A stretch of 64,000 bases of DNA from an uncultured Opitutales bacterium. Its GTDB lineage: Bacteria > Verrucomicrobiota > Verrucomicrobiia > Opitutales > Seribacteraceae. The DNA is taken from NCBI GenBank assembly GCA_943789375.1, contig CALSTX010000014.1, positions 62,001 through 126,000 on the forward strand, given 5' to 3'. The notes below the pieces were generated by a model that ran no database searches, had not been told where the DNA came from, and was given only the letters and a program-made list of their open reading frames with translations. Both the position numbers and the translations under genes were made by a program. How positions within the stretch are numbered: the first letter of the stretch is position 1; every line of letters begins with the position of its first letter. This document shows, one piece after another, positions 20,337-22,681 of the stretch.

Positions 20337-21956
20337 TTATAGAAAGTCGGTGTAGAGAATGTTTTCCATCTCTTTGGCCGCGGATACTAGTTGGGCATTG
20401 AGATCGACTTGATCTTTTGTCCTATGAAAAACTCCCATGGCAGCGGATACATCAAGGTCCTCCGAAGCTCCAACTGCTTCTTCCAACCCAACCTGTTTCT
20501 GTTGGAGTTCCCCCATTTCCGAAAGGATACGTTGCTGCTCTGAAGCATTTTCCGCTCTCGCTTCAATTAAACTGTCCAAAAAACCGTTAAGATCACTTAT
20601 GGAATAAGAACTCAGGTCATAGGTGGGGTCTTCAAAGGTCACTTCAGGCTCAAGAGCGGTCTGAAAGTCCGGGTCGTTATCCACGAGTGATCTGAGTGCA
20701 ATCTCGCTTTGATTTATCCAATCCTCGGCACCAGCCAAAGAAATACCACGGAATATACCCGTGTCACGTGGATCGATGGTTTCTCCTTCTGGATCAGTAT
20801 CAATGTCGACTGCGGCGGCATCGCCAGTGATTAAGTTGTCAGAAGGGAGAATGATCTCCGGGTAATTTGTTTTTACTCTGTCGATAAATGAAAAAAGAGC
20901 TTGATTGATTTCGTTGAAGTACAAAGATCCTGAGTTATCCACAAACAGACCTAATGCATCTGGTAGATTTTCACCATTGTTTGTGATTTCATTAAATTTT
21001 GACCACAGAAAATCCGCTTGATCATTAGGGTCAGGCATGTTTGGTTTTGTGCTAGAGTCAAGGTCGCTGGGTTTAAGAGAAAAGTCTTCTCTTCCCATGC
21101 CCCTGAAGACTTGAGCAAAAGGCTCTAGGTCAGTAGTCTCGTTGTATCCAACCGGCACCACCTCTCCTCCGTCCGCATCGATACCCCCATTTGATTCGGC
21201 AGTCCATACAGATTCAGCAACGATTACCGCAATTTCTGCCTCAACTCCCAGCTCTTCCAGGAAATTATTCCACGATGGTAGTTCTTCATTTTCAAATCTT
21301 TCTTTTGCTGCGATATCCTCATCATCATCCATTCCTCTGTAAGGTTTAAAACCCGCATTACCCTCCGATTCATCGGTAATCGTGATAGCCAAAAGTTTCT
21401 TATTGAGCAATGTGGGCTCGGTTACTCCAGGCTCAAATTGGTAAATACCCCACCTCGATAATTTGAGGGGTGCATCGGCTGCTTTGTCACTGGATTGCTG
21501 GAGCATATCTTCGGTATCCACAGAGGGGCCGAAAAGGGTGCGGGAGTCTTGGGTTGAGAATAAACTGATCCCGTTCCACTTGGATTTTGCGATGGCCCGA
21601 AGTTCATGCTGAAGTTCTTGGAATTCTTCATTGTAGGCTACTTTCGCCTGGTCCCCGGAAACCGGGGAACTGAAAAGTGTTTTCAATTCTGAGGAACGGC
21701 TGAGGATGTCTCCAATGGTGCTGTACATCCCATCCTGAGCTTGCAATAGGGAGAGTGAGTTTTGAAGGTTGCTTTGAATGTTGCGATTTTTGATCAAGTC
21801 CAACTTAGTCTTACCTAATTTGCTCGCTTCGCCGACATCATCAGCCGGGTCCAGGACTCTTTTCCCTGTCTGCAGGTGGCGGTTTATTTTCGCGTGCTTC
21901 TCAAAGGCAGAATTTAAGTTGTTCACGACGGAGCGGGACAGGGATAAGGATTCCAT
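20337..21956 (-). CDS. Flagellin-like protein with a large central vWA-like insertion
   Basis: N-terminus matches flagellin D0/D1 layout (SLSRSVVNNLNSAFEKHAKINRHLQTGKRVLDPADD...SLLQAQDGMYSTIGDILSRSSELKTLFSS...KWNGISLF); C-terminal helix GVFHRTKDQVDLNAQLVSAAKEMENILYTDFL; central LGLFVDNSGSL has DxSxS. Confidence 0.8.
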   Translation of the reverse strand: MESLSLSRSVVNNLNSAFEKHAKINRHLQTGKRVLDPADDVGEASKLGKTKLDLIKNRNIQSNLQNSLSLLQAQDGMYSTIGDILSRSSELKTLFSSPVSGDQAKVAYNEEFQELQHELRAIAKSKWNGISLFSTQDSRTLFGPSVDTEDMLQQSSDKAADAPLKLSRWGIYQFEPGVTEPTLLNKKLLAITITDESEGNAGFKPYRGMDDDEDIAAKERFENEELPSWNNFLEELGVEAEIAVIVAESVWTAESNGGIDADGGEVVPVGYNETTDLEPFAQVFRGMGREDFSLKPSDLDSSTKPNMPDPNDQADFLWSKFNEITNNGENLPDALGLFVDNSGSLYFNEINQALFSFIDRVKTNYPEIILPSDNLITGDAAAVDIDTDPEGETIDPRDTGIFRGISLAGAEDWINQSEIALRSLVDNDPDFQTALEPEVTFEDPTYDLSSYSISDLNGFLDSLIEARAENASEQQRILSEMGELQQKQVGLEEAVGASEDLDVSAAMGVFHRTKDQVDLNAQLVSAAKEMENILYTDFL

Positions 21957-21997: not shown

Positions 21998-22024
21998 GAA
22001 TCGACCAAATTGTAGAAAACTTTA
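21998..22024 (-). promoter_or_regulatory. Sigma28 (FliA)-type promoter upstream of the flagellin-like gene
   Basis: Reverse strand reads TAAAGTTT-TCTACAATTTG-GTCGATTC; consensus TAAAGTTT-N11-GCCGATAA gives -35 8/8, spacer 11, -10 6/8; ATG 42 nt downstream. Confidence 0.75.
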
Positions 22025-22154: not shown

Positions 22155-22681
22155 CTATTTTTTGGTGCGTTCTTCTTTATCCCCTTGATCGAGTTTTTGA
22201 ACTTGAGCATATACATTGCTCCCCACAATTCCGATAAATGCAGCAGTAAGTCCGACCCCGGCAACCATTACAAATTGAGCAAAAAACTTTCCCAACTTTA
22301 GATATCGGCACAGCATCGTCATATCCAACTGACCTGAGCGTTACCAGGGTCGACGAAATTGAAACAAACAGAGTACCAAATTTTTCTGGTTGTACATCCC
22401 TTTGGATTTCCCTGATTCCCACAGCACTAAAGAGTACAAAAATATAAACAAGTAAAAGCATGCCGCTGAGATGATACCTTGCAGCCAGTAAAGCTTGCAC
22501 AAAAAATCTCATAGCATGACTTTGACGGTACAATTTGAGTAAGCACAGGATTATCATTGAGCGGACTGATCAAAACCAAAAAAAGGGGTGAAAACCCTAT
22601 CCAAAAGGTAAGAATAGCAATCAGGTCAATACCGCCCAACAAACTGCGGGGGTACCTTCGCCCCCCATAGTCCCATTGCAA
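22155..22681 (-). pseudogene. Degraded voltage-gated K+ channel (Kch-like)
   Basis: Fragments RRYPRSLLGGIDLIAILTFWIGF, LLKLYRQSHAMRFFVQALLAARYHLSGMLLLVYIFVLFSAVGI, altered filter SVGYDD and FAQFVMVAGVGLTAAFIGIVGSNVYAQVQKLDQGDKEERTKK* lie in different frames. Confidence 0.85.

Follow-up and report, generated by a model that had tools for sequence, protein, structure and literature searches.

The gene at positions 20337-21956 (minus strand) of the window, the 64,000-nucleotide stretch of marine Opitutales DNA analysed here, is best read, with moderate confidence, as encoding a minor flagellin that is unlinked to the other flagellar genes, is driven by FliA and displays a phage-type alpha/beta domain on the filament for binding. 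The protein has a flagellin scaffold and a conserved middle domain, a sigma-28-type site precedes the gene, and the genome contains FliA and a flagellar cluster. In the proposed mechanism the gene is probably transcribed by FliA (sigma-28), alongside the late flagellar genes. The product would then be exported via the flagellar secretion system and incorporated into the filament as a minor subunit, through its D0/D1 helices. The variable region would be replaced by an alpha/beta domain with the ordered motifs TDE...P...R[DE]...DNSGS...E[DE]WI. This middle would project outward, in many copies along the filament, and most likely functions as a binding domain for adhesion or ligand recognition.

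The open reading frame (ORF) codes for 539 aa, its coordinates including the stop codon, and contains all the peptides quoted in the preliminary description, which had recognized flagellin-type helices at both ends. These ends were corroborated. The N-terminal scaffold (D0/D1 helices, residues 1-140; 21537-21956, minus strand) matches Flagellin_N (PF00669) over residues 6-135 with 33.1 bits, above the Pfam cut-off of 26.6, and a low-confidence structure model predicts helices at residues 37-95 and 102-127. The C-terminal scaffold (residues 453-539; 20340-20600, minus strand) matches Flagellin_C (PF00700) at residues 465-533 with 17.9 bits in the window protein, under the cut-off of 23, and the signal is clear in the G011 and G013 orthologs, whose C domain is over this cut-off at 35 bits.

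Helical ends of the flagellin type are shared with FlgL, the hook-filament junction protein, and the best NCBIfam model of the window protein is FlgL TIGR02550 (52.4 bits). The gene would in that case encode a second FlgL and not a filament flagellin. This is very unlikely, as the score lies far under the cut-off of 127.2 and the match is not discriminating, since the canonical flagellins of relatives also match TIGR02550, with 77-89 bits. The genome's own FlgL, a 1327-aa protein encoded after FlgK in the flagellar cluster, passes the cut-off (128.8 bits). In addition, the gene groups with the flagellins in the scaffold tree, in which a single FlgL was included.

The earlier view of an orphan locus is qualified by the genome that contains the window, G000 (27 contigs totalling 2.73 Mb; 92.5% complete). 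No other flagellar gene was seen on inspection by eye of the ORFs of at least 150 aa in the 64-kb window, where the term holds. It does not hold for the genome, whose contig C5 has an extensive cluster of flagellar genes at 29-63 kb. FliF, FlgK and FlgL of this cluster are over their model cut-offs and MotA is marginally below its own. The flhA gene lies in two overlapping frames (contig C5:43732-45964), either by assembly error or by a real frameshift or lesion. The whole genome has only two Flagellin_N matches, namely FlgL and the window gene, and searches of this 92.5% complete assembly turned up no FliD and no canonical flagellin. These two gaps and the split flhA weigh against the main reading. 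The gaps may stem from incomplete assembly, because in G032, the nearest relative, a single contig carries both genes.

A sigma-28 (FliA)-type promoter, TAAAGTTT-N11-GTCGATTC, is predicted at 21998-22024 (minus strand), with 13 of 16 positions agreeing with the consensus and 68 nt between the first box and the start codon of the flagellin-like gene. When the upstream region was shuffled, 2 of 1000 randomized sequences reached its score, and the pattern has one match in 64 kb against 0.06 expected. The G032 promoter, TAAAGTTT-N11-GCCGATTC, keeps the boxes and an equal distance, and its spacer has diverged. Similar sites precede the G011 ortholog (TAAAGCTT-N11-GCCGATTA) and the G036 sister flagellin (TAAAGTTT-N11-GCCGATCA); upstream of the G022 ortholog no clear sigma-28-type site was found. 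The FliA/WhiG factor of G000 scores 202.7 bits (cut-off 189.6). This factor and the site conserved in G032 assign the gene, as judged from sequence, to the putative control of the flagellar sigma factor. The window also contains an ion-channel-like gene (22177-22681, minus strand) that is broken over two frames and reads SVGYDD, where the intact 251-aa copy of G032 has SVGYGD; a tblastn search with this gene gave no match.

The promoter and the scaffold also bear on the proposal that the protein is a secreted flagellin homolog acting outside the filament, free or in a biofilm. A protein of this kind, with a free or biofilm role, is reported for Vibrio (PMC6692518). The unlinked locus, the weak Flagellin_C match and the low similarity to canonical flagellins are in line with this proposal. 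On the other hand, the conservation of both helical ends across genera and the flagellar-type promoter fit incorporation into the filament equally well or better, and a secreted role is considered unlikely.

Orthologs were searched in 42 genomes of the host's bacterial family. The middle domain is present in six genomes, all from one bacterial family. Full-length orthologs are 87% (G032) and 53% (G011 and G013) identical to the window protein. G022 has a more distant ortholog, the G031 gene is split over two contig ends and G017 retains an N-terminal fragment. A scan of genome contigs also retrieved a G032-like copy in a record labelled 'Opitutales bacterium'. Outside the host's family, the middle (profiles A3 and A5) had no significant match in the overlapping sets of 373 order, 388 phylum and 384 class genomes, and tblastn against plasmids and phages gave no matches at E<=1.

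The surroundings of the locus differ among G032, G011 and G022, and the G031 copy comes after a canonical flagellin gene within a flagellin array. In the tree of the helical ends the gene is placed among the flagellins and the domain-bearing flagellins form one clade, with the G031 fragment just outside it. The sisters of this clade (G036, G019 and G016) have unrelated middles, which therefore point to an exchange of middles among flagellins by domain swapping.

The central domain (residues 141-452, about 270-310 aa; 20601-21536, minus strand) has no Pfam match. Its landmarks are DESEG at the end of a predicted strand (residues 195-199; 21360-21374), with D and E invariant in the family, DNSGS (residues 340-344; 20925-20939) and EDWI (residues 411-414; 20715-20726), all on the minus strand. 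TDE, DNSGSL and E[DE]WI show no variation among the sequences covering each motif (6 of 6). DNSGS corresponds to the DxSxS of the preliminary description, which had proposed its conservation in homologs as a test, and the motif passed. A lone DxSxS match says little, because many unrelated flagellins of the survey contain one. Identity between genera is 51-52% in the middle and 54-57% at the N and C ends. Identity to the G022 ortholog is 33% in the middle and 54% at the N end, and thus the middle changes faster than the N end at this distance. The dN/dS of the middle is 0.21 and 0.05 in two close pairs.

These values bear out the claim that the middle is not a typical flagellin variable region, and by the sequence comparisons it is a conserved domain under purifying selection and not a drifting segment. 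The opposite reading, an ordinary hypervariable region devoid of a special fold and with coincidental motifs, can appeal to the high diversity of flagellin variable regions and to the chance DxSxS of many flagellins. It is very unlikely given an identity across genera near that of the scaffold, the low dN/dS and motifs invariant in six sequences. The dS against L009 is 0.51 in the middle (window 20601-21536) and 2.02 at the N end, and the G011/G013 pair follows the same trend (0.24 in the middle, 0.47 at the N end). From the lower dS of the middle, its recombination is possible.

The preliminary description had interpreted DxSxS as the metal site (MIDAS) of a von Willebrand A (vWA) domain. The DxSGS-type motif is placed behind a hydrophobic strand and is invariant in homologs, and vWFA domains are on record in 21 flagellins (PMC5595980, Table 1). 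A profile built from 53 vWA domains of relatives aligns to the middle with a score of 24.8, above all 120 shuffles (maximum 19.8), at a probability of 5.6%. No vWA Pfam model matched any of the 7 family members at E<=10, and at this threshold Pfam returned nothing for the family members besides the flagellin tail and one chance match. In the reference vWA domains the distance from DxSxS to the TDG strand is at least 95 residues in 53 of 53 (95-117), and the median from DxSxS to the domain end is 178 residues (n=53). The window protein has about 110 residues between DxSxS and the C-terminal flagellin helix, and no TDG-type strand. The candidate MIDAS threonine, T399, is missing in G022 and G031. 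By the order of the elements, the strand due to bear DxSxS ends instead in TDE[SA]xG/D. A canonical vWA/MIDAS domain with its metal site at DNSGS, as first proposed, is unlikely because of the absent Pfam match, the 5.6% probability, the too few residues after DxSxS and the lack of conservation of the threonine.

The two AlphaFold models are of low confidence (mean pLDDT 54.7 and 52.7). They show an alternation of strands and helices, and Foldseek searches with them (P0001 and the compact G022 middle) returned no match at E<=0.001. The middle may be a Rossmann-like or permuted relative of vWA. A circularly permuted vWA domain found no support, as the permuted profile scores no better than the natural order (24.1 vs 24.8). 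The N-half alone gave no signal against vWA, and no internal repeat between the two halves of the middle was detected. An EF-hand was also considered, from a weak ALG-2 match (E 0.5) in a profile search of solved structures. This reading was discarded because phenylalanine replaces the first aspartate of the loop, family members have E, N or H at position 12, and the segment before the loop is modelled as a strand.

The best match of the middle is PHROG 29022, a virion structural protein. Proteins that presumably join DNSGSM to E[DN]WI were the lead for a pattern scan of viral contigs, in which these two motifs were the search key and DE, P and R[DE] were outside it. The scan yielded 44 loci, 42 of them with an identical span of 119 bases, and the loci match PHROG 29022. 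With the viral member L182 as query, tblastn retrieved cyanophage genomes, in which the protein is annotated as a virion structural protein, and also Pseudomonas phages, mainly through another part of the query. Viral contigs scanned with the flagellin family's own patterns gave no confirmed locus.

The flagellin middle and PHROG 29022 (cyanophage S-PM2 and others) have in common the ordered motifs DE, P, R[DE], DNSGS[ML] and ExWI, and the tetrapeptide type of EDWI also ends the viral domain. The middle carries the series DE...R[DE]...DNSGS...ExWI, in which the search key covered DNSGS and ExWI but not DE and R[DE]. The alignment of a compact flagellin member to 20 full-length viral domains is co-linear, spans 142 columns and has a probability of 93.7%, a value inflated by the search-key motifs; the headline E-values and probability for PHROG 29022 are biased because these motifs served as the key. 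Outside the key, the aligned residues are DE, P and R[DE]. When everything but the motifs was shuffled, the real score was reached in 1 of 200 and 3 of 200 cases, and no shuffle produced an alignment of at least 120 columns; shuffles of the N-half alone reach it in 10 of 200. The resemblance beyond the two motifs is modest (shuffle p about 0.005-0.02). Masking the motifs takes the score below significance, though the same register is recovered, and 29022 was absent from a PHROGs scan of 5 flagellin members at E<=10. The phage proteins differ in being virion components and not flagellins, in a shorter DNSGS-ExWI spacing and in the weak similarity outside the two motifs. Taken together, common descent of the middle and the PHROG 29022 domain is likely but not proven from these alignments.

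Flagellins with foreign domains are a known kind of protein, because Eckhard et al. 2017 (PMC5595980) catalogued the domains of flagellin variable regions (61 families, vWFA with the sequences mentioned above among them) and demonstrated active proteolytic flagella. As far as the tools reach, the domain type, the phage link and the lineage described here are new. The vWFA flagellins of that catalogue likewise carry a foreign surface domain between the flagellin N and C ends and a vWA-type motif. Their domain assignments came from NCBI's conserved domain database, whereas the window protein has no vWA model match and its element order is not canonical, a distinction based on their published description. 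Flagellinolysin (gluzincin/M9; PMC5595980, PMC7643111) similarly bears a functional domain within the flagellin variable region, and genuine M9 flagellins exist in the host's bacterial family. The window protein differs by having neither HExxH nor an M9 match, and no enzyme activity is predicted for it.

Three flagellins of this Opitutales family exceed the Pfam cut-off for Peptidase_M9 (L079:42-1766 in G031, L076:1650-3395 in G011 and L068:7409-9115, minus strand, in G022). All carry HEMVHLMQAQ and are of the flagellinolysin type. A C-type-lectin-like middle (NWGGGEPNDSGGEDYLQI) is present in flagellins of G013 (L074:826-2091) and G011 (L070:4486-5751), with a sub-cut-off Lectin_C match (E about 0.04). 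In G032, a 1010-aa flagellin adjoining FliD (L071:4496-7525) has three weak, sub-cut-off CBM_5_12 (carbohydrate-binding) stretches. The flagellin arrays are very large in G022, G031, G017, G019 and others, with up to 33 Flagellin_N matches per genome and proteins of about 300-2300 aa.

A broader reading, offered tentatively and with the odds somewhat against it, is that the flagella of the family are modular display filaments, whose many flagellin paralogs have helical ends in common but carry swapped M9 peptidase, lectin-like or beta-rich middles, and to which the window protein would add a phage-shared, possibly permuted vWA-like adhesion domain. Display of the domain, if real, would turn the filament into a repeated binding surface, with which swimming cells could hold particles, polymers or other cells. 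The kinship with a phage virion domain, if true, would indicate a surface-recognition module common to marine phages and bacteria. The flagellin arrays of the family, with their swapped domains, constitute a natural set in which the roles of such domains may be tested.
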